From contig NZ_LQNF01000017.1 in NCBI RefSeq assembly GCF_001618145.1, forward strand, positions 1-64,000: DNA of 64,000 bases, given 5' to 3'. The translations under genes and the position numbers were made by a program. The number at the start of each line of letters is the position of its first letter. The stretch's first letter is position 1. Under the pieces are notes generated by a model. That model was not told the origin of the DNA, did no database searches, and saw only the letters and a program-made list of their open reading frames with translations. Positions 1,032 through 12,286 of this stretch are shown here, piece by piece. This DNA comes from Oceanobacillus damuensis. GTDB taxonomy: Bacteria; Bacillota; Bacilli; Bacillales; Amphibacillaceae.

Positions 1032-2676
1032 ATAACCTCTCCCCCTTGTCATGACTCATCGTTTCATGATTTATAACCGAAGATAAGTTATTCAATTTAA
1101 TTCTTACTTCACCAGAAGAAGTCGATTCGTTATATATGGATTCCATTTCGGACTCAATACTTCGTATATTAAGCTCTGCCAGGATATCGTCAAGATTTCC
1201 GACAACTTTTTCAAACAGGTTTATCTTTTCATATAACAAGTTGATGATATGTTCTTCAATCGTATTTCTGATGACAAGATTATAAATATGAACATCCTTT
1301 TCCTGGCCAAATCGGTGTATACGCCCGATTCTTTGCTCCAGCCGCATAGGATTCCAAGGAAGATCATAATTAATCAAGTGATTGCAAAATTGAAGATTGA
1401 TTCCTTCACCGCCCGCTTCCGTGGCAATGAGCACCTGTGCATGGTCTTTGAATAGCTGTTTCATCCAATCTTTCTTACCGCGTTTGAACCCACCCCTAAA
1501 AGGGACCGATGAAATACCGTGCTGTTTCAGAAACCATTGCAAATAAAATTGAGTAGCACGGTATTCGGTAAAGACGATCACTTTTTCATCACCGAGAGAC
1601 TTAATTAATTCGACAATTTTCTCTGCTTTTACATGATGCGGCAATTGTTCTATTTTTGACAGTAGTGGTTTGGTTGCCTCGTTAAGCTGTTCTTCTGTAA
1701 TTTTTGCCAGTGACATGTAGCAAGCTTCTCGGGAAGAACATATTTCTCTTAGATAGGTGATTTTTGAAAACGTCGACAAACCTGATGAAATATTCACCAG
1801 ATATTCGTATACTTCGCGGCATTCATCAGAAAAATCAAGCCAAATATTTTCTATTATCCGTTTGGATTGAGTAAGCTTCGTTGCCTTTCTTGTATTCCGA
1901 ATCATAACTTTTTGAATTAACTGCTTTAAATATGGATCTTGTTCCAGCTTATGACGATCTTTACCAAACTTCTCGATAAACGAATCATAGCTTCCTAAAT
2001 GTCCCGGTTTAAGAATGGTAATTAAATTGAATATTTCAATCAGACGGTTTTGCACAGGTGTAGCCGTCAGCAGCAGGCAATATTTCTTTTTGAGTTCCCT
2101 GGCAAACTGGTAGTTCTTCGTTTTATGGTTTTTCAGTTTGTGTGCCTCGTCAATAAGAATGAAATCATACTCCATCTCCAGGATCTCTTCCCGATTAGGA
2201 GAACGTTTCGCAGTATCCAGAGAGGATACGATGACCGAATTGTCTTTCCAGCTGTAACTCTTGCGATAAGCTACCGCGGGAATATAAAACTTTTCATTCA
2301 ACTCATTGACCCACTGATTGACAAGAGAAGCCGGTACAAGAATCAGCGCGTTCTTTACCAATCCTCGAATCATATATTCTTTTAAAATAAGTCCAGCTTC
2401 GATCGTTTTCCCTAAACCTACTTCATCAGCAAGAATAGCTCTTCCATTCATTGTTTCAATTGCCTGTTCGGCAACTTCAATCTGATGATCCAGAAATTCC
2501 ATGTGTGGAAGATATGTTAGGGAACGCAGCCCAGTAAATGAAGGGGTAATCGTTGTAAGTTCAGCATGATAAGCCATTGAAAAAAGCCCCCAGTTGGAAA
2601 TCGGCTCATCTTTTTCAATGACTGACTCTAGTTCACTTATAAAAGAAGTATCTTTCTGAATATGAATGGAATCCAT
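1018..2676 (-). CDS. yqhH: SNF2-family DEAH helicase YqhH
   Basis: This is a 552-residue SNF2/superfamily-2 ATPase. It has Walker A GLGKT at residues 87-91, the DEAH box at 176-179 followed by KLKNHKT, and TATPVQN (motif III). The C-terminal helicase lobe holds EAGGEGINLQ and the arginine finger region QRIGRIHRFGQ. Such enzymes use ATP to move along or remodel DNA or protein-DNA complexes. The target of YqhH is not known. It is full length for the bacterial short SNF2 class (B. subtilis YqhH is about 557 aa). It is the first gene of a divergent two-gene operon with yqhG, reading away from the gcv riboswitch. Confidence 0.9.
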   Translation of the reverse strand: MDSIHIQKDTSFISELESVIEKDEPISNWGLFSMAYHAELTTITPSFTGLRSLTYLPHMEFLDHQIEVAEQAIETMNGRAILADEVGLGKTIEAGLILKEYMIRGLVKNALILVPASLVNQWVNELNEKFYIPAVAYRKSYSWKDNSVIVSSLDTAKRSPNREEILEMEYDFILIDEAHKLKNHKTKNYQFARELKKKYCLLLTATPVQNRLIEIFNLITILKPGHLGSYDSFIEKFGKDRHKLEQDPYLKQLIQKVMIRNTRKATKLTQSKRIIENIWLDFSDECREVYEYLVNISSGLSTFSKITYLREICSSREACYMSLAKITEEQLNEATKPLLSKIEQLPHHVKAEKIVELIKSLGDEKVIVFTEYRATQFYLQWFLKQHGISSVPFRGGFKRGKKDWMKQLFKDHAQVLIATEAGGEGINLQFCNHLINYDLPWNPMRLEQRIGRIHRFGQEKDVHIYNLVIRNTIEEHIINLLYEKINLFEKVVGNLDDILAELNIRSIESEMESIYNESTSSGEVRIKLNNLSSVINHETMSHDKGERLYGNN

Positions 2677-2817
2677 ATGATAATTCCTCTTCCTCTTAAT
2701 AAAATTTGGGTTTTACTATAATTTTCATTTATATTATGATATAATTCAAATTGAAAATAGATTTTCTCAGTTACTGCTAGATAGTATAACCAAATATTTA
2801 TTTTTCATCAGCGAATG

Positions 2818-3010
2818 ATTACAGGGGGAGAGCTTACGGAATGTAACGCCGAAGGAGCAAGTTAAGAGCGAATCTCTCAGGCAAACAGACTCTTGTATGA
2901 CGCTACTCTGGAGAGTGTTTACAGTTTATTGTAAACCACCCACGAAGCAAGTATCTGTACGGTGGAAAGCACTTGGTATGGATATGCAACTTTCTGGTAT
3001 AAGGACAGAG
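2818..3010 (+). ncRNA. Glycine riboswitch (tandem aptamer)
   Basis: The leader contains the signature pieces of a glycine riboswitch. GGGGGAGAG, CCGAAGGAGCAA and AATCTCTCAGGCAAA form aptamer one (about 2823-2920). A second aptamer runs to CTTTCTGGTATAAGGACAGAG. The paired-aptamer form binds glycine, and in Bacilli it acts as an ON switch for the glycine-cleavage operon. The gcvT-gcvPA-gcvPB genes downstream fit exactly. The expression platform is the terminator hairpin that begins inside the last bases of aptamer two. Confidence 0.92.
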
Positions 3011-3041
3011 ATTTCTTCCGCAAGGAGAAATCTCTATTTTT
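3007..3041 (+). terminator. Riboswitch expression-platform terminator
   Basis: AGAGATTTC pairs with GAAATCTCT around a short TCCGCAAGGA tip, followed by ATTTTT. The 5' arm overlaps the end of the second glycine aptamer, so glycine binding should prevent terminator formation and let transcription reach gcvT. Confidence 0.85.
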
Positions 3042-8080: not shown

Positions 8081-8875
8081 ATGTCGATTATTGTAGATTC
8101 GCAAAATAAGCTGGATGTGGATTCGCTAAATGAGGATATTAAGCTGTTCCCCCCGGTACATCCCATAACAGGAGATATGAAACTTACCCATAAGGGCGTC
8201 TCCCGTCTAGTTATGCTGGACCGTTACGCATTCAAGGATACGGAAAAGAAAACATTAAAAGCTGGCGACTTTGTTGTTCTTACAGTAAAGGCAGACCCTA
8301 AGTTTCCTGCAAGGGGACTTGGGTTTGTAAAAGAAATTGATTGGAGCGAGAAAAAAGCCAAGGTTTTGGTTGATCCAGAATTTGTTTCGGTACTTGATGA
8401 TGAAGAGGAAGCAAGCACGGGCATTGTAACACGTTCTCTCGATGTCATTGAGAAGCCTTTAGAGGTTTACTATGAACAAATCGCAAAACGAAATGCAACC
8501 GGACTTTCAACTGTAGAAGAAACGGAAGAACAACGGAACAAATGGTTCGATGAATTCAATAAGGAACTGGCCGATTTAAATTTCATTCCCGCGGGAAGGG
8601 TATTATACGGAGCAGGTGCAGATACAGATGTCACCTATTTCAATTGTTATGTAATGCCTTATATTAAAGACTCAAGGGAAGGTATTTCCGATCACCGTAA
8701 ACAGGTAATGGAAATTATGTCCCGTGGTGGTGGTGTCGGAACAAACGGTTCCACATTGCGTCCAAGAAACACACTGGCTAGAGGAGTTAATGGGAAATCA
8801 TCAGGTTCTGTCTCATGGCTCGATGATATTGCCAAACTGACTCACCTTGTTGAACAAGGCGGTTCAAGACGTGGT
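8081..8875 (+). CDS. nrdJ: Class II (B12-dependent) ribonucleotide reductase, exon 1
   Basis: This is the first of three exons of an adenosylcobalamin-dependent ribonucleoside reductase, which makes deoxyribonucleotides with or without oxygen. Exon 1 encodes residues 1-265, including the redox cysteine in FNCYVMP (C189), RGGGVGTNGSTLRPR and GGSRRG. It ends at the GGT of SRRG. Joining 8081-8875, 9328-9972 and 11165-12286 gives one 853-residue protein, the normal size for Bacillus-type NrdJ. Without splicing, translation runs into intron 1 and stops at 8909-8911. AAAGGAGAG precedes the ATG. In B. subtilis this slot holds lipM, so nrdJ looks like a lineage-specific insertion. Confidence 0.93.
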
Positions 8876-9327
8876 AAAATGATGTGCCTCGTCTATAAAC
8901 AAACCTCGTGAATTGCTGGAAACTCTTTAGATTTCATCAATGAATAATCACCTTAGAAATAATCACTTTGAGGTGGACTGTTCATGAAATCATATGATGC
9001 TAAAAAACCACAGGAATGTAAAATATAGATATCTAAACGATTTCGAAACTGTGGAAAGCATCATATATGACTTGTTGGCTACAACGTAACGGGAAACGGT
9101 AAGCGTGAATGCAAAAAACAACAGGTGGATAAAGACAATCAGCAGCCAAGCTTCTAGATATAAAGAAGAAGGTTCAACGACCATCGAAAACACGTCAAGT
9201 TGACGGAAGTGAGTAGAGTAGAAATCAAGTGATTTCGAAGTGCGAGGACACATAATAATGTGTAAGATATGGTCTGAACTCTAAGGAGACTTAGAGAGTT
9301 GATGTAACGGATCAACGTAACAAACTG
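8876..9327 (+). ncRNA. Group I self-splicing intron 1 of nrdJ (no ORF)
   Basis: The 452-nt insert has the group I core. P1 is formed by exon AGACGTGGT (8867-8875) and guide GCCTCGTCT (8886-8894), with the required U.G pair at the splice site and one U-U mismatch. P4 is GCTG (8915-8918) with CAGC (9140-9143) in the Q-like AATCAGCAGCCAAG. P7 is GACCAT (9179-9184) with ATGGTC (9269-9274) in AAGATATGGTCTGAAC. A P9 hairpin lies at 9279-9296, another stem at 9298-9316, and the last base is G. Splicing joins SRRG to AQMIMLVD in frame. The 220-nt P5 region carries a long hairpin. No homing endonuclease is encoded. Confidence 0.9.
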
Positions 9328-9972
9328 GCACAAATGATTATGCTAGTGGATTCCCACCCAGACATAATCGAATTTATCATTTCAAAAATGCAAAACCCTA
9401 GAATTCTCCGTTATTTGATTGAGAATACAGATGATGAACAAATAAAACGACTTGCTGAAGAAAAATTAAAGTTTACACCTTTAACAGAAACAGAATTCGA
9501 TTTATACCAAAGTGTCGTAAACTACAAACCAATTCAAGGATTGGGAGGATTTACAGAGGCAGCTATTCGTGAAGCGGATGAGAAACTGCGTACTGGTGGA
9601 ACGTATTCCGTTCACAATCCTGAATTTTTGACTGGTGCAAACATTTCCGTATGTATTACAAAGGAATTTATGGAAGCAGTCGAAAATGATGAAGTATATG
9701 AGCTTCGCTTCCCAGATGTGGAAAATTATACAGCCGAACAAATGCAGGCTTACAATGAAAAATGGCATGAAGTTGGCGATGTTCGAAAATGGGAAGAGAT
9801 GGGCTACGGTGTTCGTGTCTATCGTCGGATCAAAGCAAAGGAACTATGGAATTTGATTAATGTTTGTGCGACCTATTCTGCAGAGCCAGGCATTTTCTTT
9901 ATTGATAATGCAAACGATATGACCAATGCCAAAGCATATGGCGATCAGGTAGTTGCAACAAACCCGTGTGGT
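9328..9972 (+). CDS. nrdJ: Class II ribonucleotide reductase, exon 2
   Basis: The middle exon encodes residues 266-480 of NrdJ. It begins AQMIMLVDSHPDIIEFI and ends at TNPCG. It includes NISVCITKEFMEAVEND and the catalytic thiyl cysteine C479. The partner of the Cys-Gly-Glu motif, E481, is the first codon of exon 3. The boundaries were set by the P1 pairings of both introns and by the in-frame protein junctions. An unspliced message would stop eleven bases into intron 2, at 9982-9984. Confidence 0.92.
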
Positions 9973-11164
9973 AAAGTCGCATAGTTTGCCTCACGTAAAA
10001 CATTGCGGGATGAAGCGGGAAGGCTGAGATGCTAATCCGAACCGAAGGCTGAAGGTAAAATTTCAGTCAGGGGCAACGCATAGGTGGTGAACCTCTTGGA
10101 GAATATAATCCACCCACGAGACCGCAACATTACACACACTTAAAATTTTTATGGTATTGGGGGATAGGAATGAATCGCGGATATGCAGGGTTCTATAAAG
10201 GTTATTATTTAAGAAGTTCTTATGAATACGCATATGCTAAATTTCTAGACTATCATTCAATAAGTTGGAAATATGAACTAGACCTATTTGATATCGGCTA
10301 TCGAATATATAAACCAGATTTTTTTCTGTATAACAGTAAAAATGATTTGTATAAAATAGTTGAAATAAAATCAAGAAATGAAATTGAAATGATTAAAGCA
10401 CAGAAAGCTCTACATGCTATTGAAAATCTCTTTGAAATTAAAACTGAACTGATTTCATACAAGGAATTGTTGAAATTGTATAAAGGACTACCTTTTTCAT
10501 TAAATTCGATAATAACTGAGTGGATATCCTCTGAAAACACAACTATTAATAAATCTGCTTTTGGAGAGTTAAACGGCCATTACAACAGGTCCCATACATT
10601 AGAAACCAGGAGAAGAATTGGCAAAAACACAAAAAAACTATGGGCGTCTGATAGTATAGCCAAGCAAAATATGGTTGAAGGATTAAAAAAATCTGGATTG
10701 TCTCAAAAAGGAAAATTAAAAACTCCTAGAGAGACTAGACAATGTATAGAGTGTTCAAAAACATTTATAGTGATGATTTCTTCTACTCAAAAATTTTGTA
10801 GCCAAACATGTGCAGGAAATTCTGCTATCAGAAATGCAACTGTTGCTTATGTAAATAAGCGAAATCAGATAAAAGAGGATATAAAAAATTATATTATCCG
10901 ATGGTCAGAAGAAAACAAAGAGATAGTTTTAGCTGCAACTTTCAATAAGATTAGTCCAACATTAAGTCCGCTACTGAAAGACATTCAAGATCAATTTGGA
11001 GTTAAAGATCTAAGAGTTATTTCCAATGCGGTATTCGGTCAAGATAGAGGACGTAAAGAGCTTTTAAAATTTATGAAAAATGTGTGTAATGAAAAGATAT
11101 GCTGAACTTGCAGGAAGACAACTGTAAGAACTATCGGATAAAAAGCCGATAGGATAACAAATTG
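9973..11164 (+). ncRNA. Group I intron 2 of nrdJ, encoding a homing endonuclease
   Basis: The 1192-nt insert shows a group I core. P1 pairs exon CGTGTGGT (9965-9972) with guide GCCTCACG (9988-9995), with a U.G at the splice site. P3 is TTGCGG (10003-10008) with CCGCAA (10122-10127). P6 is GGCTGAA (10047-10053) with TTCAGTC (10062-10068). P7 is GCATA (10078-10082) with TATGC (10182-10186). GGTGG (10083-10087) with CCACC (10110-10114) forms an extra stem between P7 and P3, as in subgroup IA. A P9-type hairpin lies at 11131-11152, and the intron ends in G. Splicing joins TNPCG to EQPLAPYS. The P7 3' strand lies inside the start of the endonuclease ORF. Confidence 0.85.
10170..11105 (+). CDS. Intron-encoded homing endonuclease, PD-(D/E)xK-like with NUMOD3 and zinc finger
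   Basis: This 311-residue protein is predicted to cut intronless nrdJ and drive intron homing. Residues 1-100 look like a PD-(D/E)xK nuclease: E19 in RSSYEYAYAKFLD, KPDFFLY with D50, and VEIKS with E65 and K67. Residues about 130-156 (HYNRSHTLETRRRIGKNTKKLW) resemble a NUMOD3 DNA-binding module. C192, C195, C210 and C214 form a CX2C-X14-CX3C zinc finger. A basic tail follows. GGGGGATAGGA precedes the ATG. Codons are more AT-rich than in the flanking exons. The fold assignments are motif-based; no HNH, GIY-YIG or LAGLIDADG motif is visible. Confidence 0.75.
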   Translation: MNRGYAGFYKGYYLRSSYEYAYAKFLDYHSISWKYELDLFDIGYRIYKPDFFLYNSKNDLYKIVEIKSRNEIEMIKAQKALHAIENLFEIKTELISYKELLKLYKGLPFSLNSIITEWISSENTTINKSAFGELNGHYNRSHTLETRRRIGKNTKKLWASDSIAKQNMVEGLKKSGLSQKGKLKTPRETRQCIECSKTFIVMISSTQKFCSQTCAGNSAIRNATVAYVNKRNQIKEDIKNYIIRWSEENKEIVLAATFNKISPTLSPLLKDIQDQFGVKDLRVISNAVFGQDRGRKELLKFMKNVCNEKIC

Positions 11165-12286
11165 GAACAACCACTTGCACCTTATTCAGTCTGTAACCTG
11201 GCTGCGGTGAACTTAGCTGAAATGGCTGATAAGGATGCAAAAACAGTTAATTTTGAAAAGCTTAAACAAACGGTTCAGACTGGTGTGAGAATGCAGGATA
11301 ATGTAATCGACGCAACCCCATACTTCCTGGAAGAGAACAAAAAGCAGGCACTTGGAGAACGACGTGTAGGCTTGGGTGTCATGGGAATGCACGATCTGTT
11401 AATCTACTGTGAAACCCCTTATGGATCAAAAGAGGGAAATGAATTGGTGGACAAAGTATTTGAAACCATCGCAACAACTGCTTACCGTACATCCATTGAG
11501 ATTGCGAAAGAAAAGGGAAGTTTCCCATTCCTGATCGGTAATACAGAAGAAGAAACAGCAGAATTGCGAGAAGCATTCATCAATACAGGATATATGAAAA
11601 AAATGCCAGAAGATATCCGACAAGATATCCTTAAATATGGTATCCGAAACTCACACTTATTAACGGTTGCACCGACAGGCAGCACGGGAACAATGGTTGG
11701 AGTGAGCACAGGATTGGAACCGTATTTCTCCTTCTCCTATTTCAGAAGTGGAAGACTTGGTAAATTTATCGAAGTAAAAGCAGATATTGTACAGGAATAT
11801 CTTGATAGAAATCCTGACGCAGATGCGGACAATCTTCCGGAATGGTTCGTTACAGCCATGGATTTGGCACCTGAAGCACATGCAGATACACAATGTGTCA
11901 TCCAGCGCTGGGTCGACAGTTCCATCTCGAAAACCGTAAACGCACCAAAAGGATATACGGTAAATCAAGTAGAAAGTGTTTATCAACGGCTTTACAATGG
12001 CGGAGCAAAAGGTGGAACTGTCTATGTGGATGGAAGCCGTGACTCACAAGTACTGACATTGAAAGCGGAAGAAAATACGGTCGGAGAACAAACAGAATTG
12101 TTTACAGACCAGGAAAAACCGAAAGTCGTTTTAATGGATACAATCCAGGAATTAGGAAAAACAAACGTCACAATCGGTTCAGAAGTCGGAGACACCTGCC
12201 CAGTGTGCAGAGAGGGAAGTGTGGAAGATATCGGTGGTTGTAATACATGTACAAGCTGTGGAGCACAGTTGAAATGCGGATTATAA
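11165..12286 (+). CDS. nrdJ: Class II ribonucleotide reductase, exon 3
   Basis: The last exon encodes residues 481-853. It starts with E481 of the catalytic Cys-Gly-Glu motif, followed by QPLAPYSVCNL with C490, the likely redox partner of C189. VAPTGSTGTM is the phosphate-binding loop. The C-terminus is cysteine-rich (CPVCREGSVEDIGGCNTCTSCGAQLKCGL), resembling the zinc-ribbon or redox tail of NrdJ proteins. A TTG at 11162 gives an apparent start, but it is intron sequence. The gene ends at 12286, just before a strong terminator. Confidence 0.93.
   Translation, partial: EQPLAPYSVCNLAAVNLAEMADKDAKTVNFEKLKQTVQTGVRMQDNVIDATPYFLEENKKQALGERRVGLGVMGMHDLLIYCETPYGSKEGNELVDKVFETIATTAYRTSIEIAKEKGSFPFLIGNTEEETAELREAFINTGYMKKMPEDIRQDILKYGIRNSHLLTVAPTGSTGTMVGVSTGLEPYFSFSYFRSGRLGKFIEVKADIVQEYLDRNPDADADNLPEWFVTAMDLAPEAHADTQCVIQRWVDSSISKTVNAPKGYTVNQVESVYQRLYNGGAKGGTVYVDGSRDSQVLTLKAEENTVGEQTELFTDQEKPKVVLMDTIQELGKTNVTIGSEVGDTCPVCREGSVEDIGGCNTCTSCGAQLKCGL

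Follow-up and report, generated by a model that had tools for sequence, protein, structure and literature searches.

To our knowledge, I-Ssp6803I is the one characterised PD-(D/E)xK homing endonuclease, and nucleases of the PD-(D/E)xK or resolvase fold have rarely been described in self-splicing introns. I-Ssp6803I, reportedly recognised as a PD-(D/E)xK homing endonuclease by Zhao et al. 2007, is a short protein that is encoded by a group I intron and targets a tRNA gene. Here we analysed a 64,000-nucleotide stretch of Oceanobacillus damuensis DNA (the whole stretch is called the window below), in which nrdJ, the gene for class II ribonucleotide reductase, is interrupted by two group I introns. 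The second intron contains an open reading frame (ORF) at 10170-11105 on the forward strand, the strand of all nrdJ and intron features given below. This ORF is very probably the homing endonuclease gene (HEG) of a mobile group I intron, and its product a PD-(D/E)xK enzyme that resembles resolvases and endonuclease I and carries a modular tail. The likeness to I-Ssp6803I lies in being a PD-(D/E)xK homing endonuclease encoded by a group I intron; the window protein differs in its NUMOD3-like segment, its zinc finger and its helical tail, and in sitting in nrdJ. It is best seen as a second PD-(D/E)xK homing branch with a modular tail.

Other described systems resemble the locus in part. T7 endonuclease I (PF05367), a junction resolvase, shares with the window protein the pattern R-S-x-x-E ... 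P-D-F ... E-x-K, and TnsA (PF08722), a transposase subunit, is the top structural match of its nuclease domain; the window protein falls under the Pfam cut-offs of both. I-Bth0305I, of the EDxHD kind, has a related fold but a different catalytic motif, and a modular DNA-binding tail is ascribed to it (PMC3943268). Six families of homing endonucleases, PD-(D/E)xK and EDxHD among them, are distinguished in two papers (PMC3943268, PMC6083498). In the text of a review of bacterial group I introns, recA, nrdE, nrdF and flagellin genes are given as hosts and the word 'nrdJ' does not occur (PMC3984707), and a survey of Bacillus phage introns lists GIY-YIG, HNH, LAGLIDADG and Vsr types together with one endonuclease family in which no domain was recognised (PMC11878797). 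Our literature search, which covered titles and abstracts with most subscription papers beyond reach, found no description of an endonuclease I-like homing enzyme in nrdJ.

A preliminary description of this DNA, made from the sequence alone, had proposed a 311-residue protein at 10170-11105 that carries an E19...D50...E65-x-K67 pattern and lacks LAGLIDADG, GIY-YIG and HNH motifs, and our analysis bears out each of these points. The ORF starts with ATG and encodes 311 residues. In an alignment of 17 HEG proteins, the window protein included, E19, P49, D50, E65, K67, C192, C195, C210 and C214 are invariant, and the most divergent member is 36% identical. The first five of these residues are also unchanged in all 44 nuclease-domain sequences collected, so the pattern is not a matter of chance. 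Searched against Pfam with E up to 10, the window protein matches no LAGLIDADG, GIY-YIG or HNH family; Pfam and NCBIfam assign it no nuclease family, and NCBIfam gives no match of any kind. In PHROGs it matches best, over residues 8-80 (E 1.2e-8), a phage family whose function is unknown. Two PHROGs families of HNH endonucleases, phrog_1271 (E 1.8e-5, residues 167-243) and phrog_15471 (E 0.0076, residues 168-216), also match, and both align around the zinc finger and not with the N-terminus. Homologs occur in Neobacillus niacini, Lysinibacillus boronitolerans, Lysinibacillus sp. KCTC 33748, Alkalihalobacterium chitinilyticum, further genomes and an Aneurinibacillus plasmid. The HEG is under purifying selection in three homolog pairs, with ratios of nonsynonymous to synonymous substitution (dN/dS) of 0.148, 0.142 and 0.11, where dS is high (1.4-1.7) in two of the three; a fourth pair was saturated. 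The GC content of the HEG is 0.304, against 0.389-0.428 in the nrdJ exons.

The nuclease domain comprises residues 1-122 (10170-10535), with E19, D50, E65 and K67 as its predicted catalytic residues. It was modelled in isolation from the window domain aligned with 43 relatives, giving a mean pLDDT of 93.9 and a pTM of 0.87. The model consists of a helix (17-28), strands (32-35, 51-54 and 60-66), a helix (71-88) and a further strand (91-95), and has the core alpha/beta fold of the PD-(D/E)xK superfamily. E19 is located in the first helix, D50 immediately ahead of a strand, and E65 and K67 at the end of the following strand; the acidic residues and the lysine of the PD-(D/E)xK motif are present in 44 of 44 sequences. 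In VIA-align, TnsA is the top structural match (Z 8.4, 114 residues, 3.1 A), and VRR_NUC (Z 7.2), I-Bth0305I (6.8), Vsr (6.5), Hjc (5.8) and FAN1 (5.7) are further matches; most of the top matches that could be placed are nucleases of the PD-(D/E)xK fold. Foldseek superposes the model on TnsA from the PDB with a TM of 0.60. A structural search against viral models returned 77 matches at E 0.001 or better; the 50 listed include several under the name endonuclease I, one called 'Nuclease associated modular domain 3' and, from phage Eldridge, a 'Homing endonuclease'.

Profile searches lead in the same direction. The domain family's best PDB profile matches, with E-values from 0.09 to 0.66, belong to T7 endonuclease I and are aligned with R-S-x-x-E and P-D-F in register and, in the best entry, with E-x-K in register too. 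Among the PDB matches listed, none bears the name I-Ssp6803I, an absence that excludes nothing. When the 44 domain sequences were searched against Pfam, 18 matched DUF790, 11 DUF1064, 8 Phage_endo_I, 4 HSDR_N and 3 a TnsA-like family, with best E-values across these families of 1.2e-5 to 0.0066; the eight matches to phage endonuclease I (PF05367) reach E 0.00021, and the window protein itself is not among them. In PHROGs, one family of Holliday junction resolvases is matched by 22 of the 44 sequences and another by 19. The model, the structural matches and the profile, Pfam and PHROGs results, taken together, support the assignment of the N-terminal domain to the PD-(D/E)xK fold, with the endonuclease I / TnsA branch as its predicted nearest relatives. 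A PD-(D/E)xK-like domain had been suspected in the preliminary description, and both the top structural match, TnsA, and the top profile match, T7 endonuclease I, agree with that suspicion.

Behind the nuclease domain, residues 128-161 (10551-10652) form a NUMOD3-like segment, an assignment that is likely but weak. The best PDB match of the family profile, the I-TevI entry 1i3j, covers exactly these residues (E 0.02), and Pfam NUMOD3 (PF07460) matches 6 of the 17 HEG proteins (best E 0.0049). A NUMOD3-like helix had been suggested from the outset; the suggestion finds this support at the level of the family, and the window protein itself has no Pfam match. The CX2C-X14-CX3C finger of the preliminary description is on firmer ground. 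Its four cysteines (C192-X2-C195-X14-C210-X3-C214; 10743-10811) are invariant in 17 of 17 sequences, and there are weak matches to zf-FCS and DUF6076. The remaining C-terminal region (residues 215-311; 10812-11102) presumably binds DNA. In the full-length model, which was built from 5 sequences and has a low overall pLDDT of 59.4, residues from about 212 onward are predicted to be mostly helical, with blocks of 79-91 across residues 231-310. Matches of the tail to the beta subunit of AMP-activated kinase (best E 0.03, residues 238-281) were dismissed as chance. The whole combination had at first seemed unfamiliar. A resolvase-like HEG with a modular tail is indeed what we see here; three phage ORFs (L194, L195 and L198) appear to join NUMOD3 or finger-like parts to this kind of nuclease in reversed order, some of the matches being weak. 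Judged by these ORFs, the combination is less unique than was thought.

The gene that hosts the intron could be reassembled. Exon 1 (8081-8875; PRK08115 E 5.5e-149) is followed by intron 1 (8876-9327), which has no large ORF and matches Rfam RF00028 with 64.8 bits (match 8829-9296). Exon 2 (9328-9972; E 1.8e-120) ends with ...NPCG, intron 2 (9973-11164) is 1192 nt long with the omega G as its last base, and exon 3 (11165-12286; E 7.9e-224) starts with EQPLAP... The exon and intron ends were set by exon joining. Deleting 8876-9327 and 9973-11164 yields an uninterrupted NrdJ of 853 residues that contains ...ATNPCGEQPLAP..., which is consistent with splicing of the introns, and the joined exon 2-exon 3 site named in the preliminary description was therefore right. 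Since intron 2 interrupts nrdJ at NPCG|E, it splits NPCGE, which we take to be the active-site motif of NrdJ.

Intron 2 has the P3-P7 core, the P1/P10 guide pairing and the 3' omega G of a group I intron. We aligned it with other copies, taking in 43 of 45 collected (L181 and L006 lie outside the pattern); some copies are near-identical, so the pairing cells counted below are not independent. P1 (9966-9994) pairs the exon sequence GUGUGGU (9966-9972) with the guide GCCUCAC (9988-9994) around one constant U-U mismatch. P3 (10003-10008/10122-10127) is paired in 258 of 258 cells, with changes on both sides at 2 of 6 pairs, and P7 (10078-10082/11098-11102) in 215 of 215 cells without variation. 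Between P7 and P3' lies P7.1 (10083-10087/10110-10114), paired in 215 of 215 cells and changed on both sides at all 5 pairs, and P7.2 is paired in 123 of 123; P7.1 and P7.2 at this place are a feature of group IA introns. The first 7 pairs of P8 (10128-10138/11081-11091) are paired in 287 of 301 cells, with changes on both sides at 5 of the 7. P9 (11107-11113/11122-11128) and P9.1 (11131-11137/11146-11152) are paired in 300 of 301 and 296 of 296 cells, P9.1 having changes on both sides at 7 of 7 pairs. P10 is paired in 158 of 172 cells, and the omega G is present in all 43 introns. A hand-written register for P6 was discarded (97 of 293 cells paired). The HEG sits in the P8 loop and its final codons overlap P8', J8/7 and P7'. 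In two other copies (L004 and L034) the ORF stops earlier yet the RNA core is kept, suggesting that the RNA constrains the 3' end of the HEG.

The distribution of the intron was followed in 397 genomes of the order and in a separate sample of 398 genomes of the class. HEG matches were found in 20 of the 397 genomes (13 intact, 6 broken and 1 distant free-standing relative) and in 7 of the 398. The free-standing relative (L027, 1402-2262) is a helix-turn-helix protein whose C-terminus is formed by a related nuclease domain, and its surroundings are phage-like. The ribozyme pattern occurs in 40 of the 397 genomes at 41 places, and a reversed control pattern at none. Two of these places (L138 and L183) are in a gene reading as recA and have no HEG; the other 39 are in nrdJ at the site of intron 2, where the HEG is intact in 12, broken in 6 and without a match at E 0.01 in 21. 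Of the 397 genomes, 347 have a match to a 66-residue piece of NrdJ that spans the site. By hand count, the match falls into two halves, that is, the site is split, in 50; the best match in the other 297 has E 5.1e-28 or better, except in G034 (E 3.0e-10). In three genomes of the same genus (G001, G006 and G022) the site is uninterrupted. Occupied, empty and decayed sites thus coexist among relatives, and the set of intact, broken and absent HEGs beside empty sites looks like a homing cycle, in keeping with the homing endonuclease context of the preliminary description, which now includes a group I intron, empty sites and decayed copies. This HEG branch lives in chromosomal introns, and the genomes that carry it belong to many families of the order; copies that are intact, decaying or absent occur next to one another.

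Two occurrences extend this range. In L034, the NrdJ is divergent and a HEG occupies the motif that intron 2 splits in the window. In L037, a HEG that is 36% identical lies between the halves of a monomeric class II reductase (RTPR), whose upstream half ends at model position 378, with the reading ...LNPCA, and whose downstream half starts at 379. Upstream of exon 2, L034 and L036 also hold an ORF that matches DUF559 and, weakly, Vsr, the EDxHD-like kind.

Relatives of the nuclease are also found in phages. A viral scan with the single window protein found no relative, and in an annotated phage collection the same query found 16 matches, all weak (best E 0.007) and all covering less than 80% of the query. 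When the window family served as the query, with the window protein first, the scan yielded two relatives (L038 and L039), and each lies in a ribonucleotide reductase gene that a split intein interrupts. A second scan headed by L038 gave 128 relatives, 80 of which (L040-L119) were kept and represent 53 distinct ORFs. We read the surroundings of 46 of the 53 by eye. The upstream ORF ends in an intein N-half that starts at NP|C or NPC|C in 45 of the 46, the downstream ORF holds an intein C-half ending in HN|C or HN|S in 45, and both halves are seen in 44, the exceptions (L049 and L089) being cut by contig ends. A pattern run on all 80 loci found both halves at 58, the downstream half only at 19, the upstream half only at 2 and neither at 1. 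Six downstream ORFs were tested; models of class II ribonucleotide reductase are matched by all six (by L059 weakly), and the intein C-terminal model by five of them. These intein boundaries place the phage relatives within two codons of the intron 2 site. In the intein-site proteins, the nuclease is C-terminal, behind a different N-terminal part.

More distant relatives are found in a capsid gene of Bacillus phage SP-15, beside the thymidylate synthase gene of HCTV-5 and as ORFs beside helicase genes. The SP-15 protein (YP_009302421), annotated as Phage_endo_I and located between two joined pieces of the capsid coding sequence, is above the Pfam cut-off and aligns with the family profile in hhalign (E 1.5e-9). 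It differs from the window protein in that its nuclease is C-terminal, after a weak ROS/MUCR-type match, and its host gene encodes a capsid protein. In a tree of 68 nuclease domains, which has few columns for its rows, 16 intron sequences group together (97/63) and so do 38 intein sequences (97/86), with one short phage (Lak) row inside the latter.

Dassa et al. 2009 reportedly described genes fractured by split inteins, together with a free-standing endonuclease, and the endonuclease family of their title is reportedly the Vsr-like one. The coincidence of introns and inteins in ribonucleotide reductase genes is said to go back to Derbyshire and Belfort 1998. The phage relatives share the fractured-gene arrangement in ribonucleotide reductases, whereas the element of the window is a group I intron and not an intein. 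What is added to the known coincidence is a shared nuclease domain. Another paper, citing Dassa et al. 2009, states that nrdA and nrdJ are interrupted by inteins (PMC3653736). Shared targeting by the intron and intein nucleases could result from common descent or from convergence on a conserved site. One endonuclease I-like, resolvase-derived lineage may have specialised on the DNA that encodes NPCxE, riding there in two unrelated vehicles that remove themselves (in bacterial chromosomes a group I intron, in phages a split intein) and swapping its DNA-binding modules, a scenario that we regard as possible and rather doubtful; our estimate for such a single lineage, modest from the start, was lowered slightly because the viral set was ranked by similarity to L038. 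The locus opens the questions of whether homing endonucleases arise from resolvases and whether a single nuclease lineage can switch vehicles, intron or intein, at a single target. Because related phage nucleases lie near the same point of ribonucleotide reductase, beside split inteins, both questions are testable.

Several observations weigh against the assignment of 10170-11105 to a PD-(D/E)xK homing endonuclease or against parts of it. Two mitoribosome proteins rank 3 and 4 in VIA-align (Z 8.1 and 7.6), and according to the program's own note a Z under 8 may reflect merely a common arrangement. Foldseek against the PDB gave the domain model no match at E 0.001 or better; the list is led there by Bax1 and R2 retrotransposon proteins, with T7 endonuclease I in 11th place and poorly superposed (rmsd 20). 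The profile similarity to T7 endonuclease I is weak as well, as its best E-value above indicates. The full-length model is poor, and it is therefore the sequence that carries the assignments of the NUMOD3-like segment, the finger and the tail. In the intron, P1 is paired in 233 of 271 cells and keeps its constant mismatch. Intron 2 is also under the gathering threshold of the Rfam group I model (RF00028), which intron 1 alone reaches; that score is a search threshold and not a defining structure, and the pairs of intron 2 covary. The 39 nrdJ intron places correspond to 39 of the 50 split genomes, and of the remaining 11 only G253 was inspected (intact HEG, variant core). In G020, of the same genus, nrdJ is nearly wholly lost: a HEG remnant (L008, 1280-1731) continues into what is left of exon 3, its last 88 codons, and the neighbours resemble those of the window; ancestral presence followed by loss therefore competes with a recent arrival of the element. 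The second viral scan was ranked by similarity to an intein-site nuclease, so the uniform setting of the phage relatives is partly a selection effect, and the tree of 68 domains does not settle whether the intron and intein groups are sisters. DNA cutting by the HEG protein, finally, is a property that we infer.

The similarity of the domain to resolvases raises the question of whether the protein is a structure-specific enzyme like endonuclease I or Hjc that was caught in the intron by chance and has no site preference. Such an origin would fit the weak profile similarity to T7 endonuclease I and to families of phage Holliday junction resolvases. A tail with a zinc finger that is conserved across genera would not, nor would intron copies at one nrdJ point and related nucleases beside split inteins at the same motif, and we consider a stray resolvase improbable. 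The structural match to the catalytic domain of I-Bth0305I (Z 6.8, 80 residues, 2.9 A) could instead point to the EDxHD homing endonucleases, which include Vsr-like enzymes. Here the motif decides: EDxHD proteins have H-x-D in place of E-x-K, and E65-x-K67 is invariant in 44 of 44 sequences. The window protein also has no Vsr match in Pfam, unlike the ORFs upstream of exon 2 in L034 and L036, so membership in the EDxHD group is extremely unlikely.

Some intron-encoded endonucleases also act as splicing factors, and the end of the HEG overlaps the ribozyme core, as might be expected if the protein were mainly a maturase or RNA-binding splicing helper that no longer cuts DNA. The invariance of the catalytic residues in the 44 nuclease domains speaks against a lost nuclease function. 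In addition, the 21 of 39 nrdJ introns of this type that have no HEG match are flanked by matched exons on both sides, and the HEG protein is therefore probably not generally needed for splicing. We judge a purely splicing-related role very unlikely and prefer a homing endonuclease.

The fold of the domain, its conserved residues, the structure and insertion site of the intron, the empty sites, the decayed copies and the purifying selection in three pairs come directly from the computation. From these we infer cutting, the roles of metal ions, target recognition by the tail, splicing and homing along the following lines. The N-terminal PD-(D/E)xK domain of the homing endonuclease would cut the intronless nrdJ allele near the NPCGE codons. 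Metal ions for this reaction might be held by D50 and E65, with E19 and K67 assisting. Binding of the long target, which surrounds the joined exon 2-exon 3 sequence, would fall to the NUMOD3-like segment, the zinc finger and the C-terminal helices. When the break is repaired from the copy that bears the intron, the intron would be inserted and the target thereby destroyed, and the intron would remove itself from the RNA, so that nrdJ stays functional.

Two further observations concern other parts of these loci. In L137 (about 2196-3038) and L187, nrdJ appears to have a further interruption near exon 3 residue 173, after TVAPTG, and behind this interruption L137 has an ORF in which zinc-finger-like motifs recur. 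Elsewhere in the window, a glycine riboswitch (2815-2902, 64.5 bits) precedes ORFs that read as glycine-cleavage genes.
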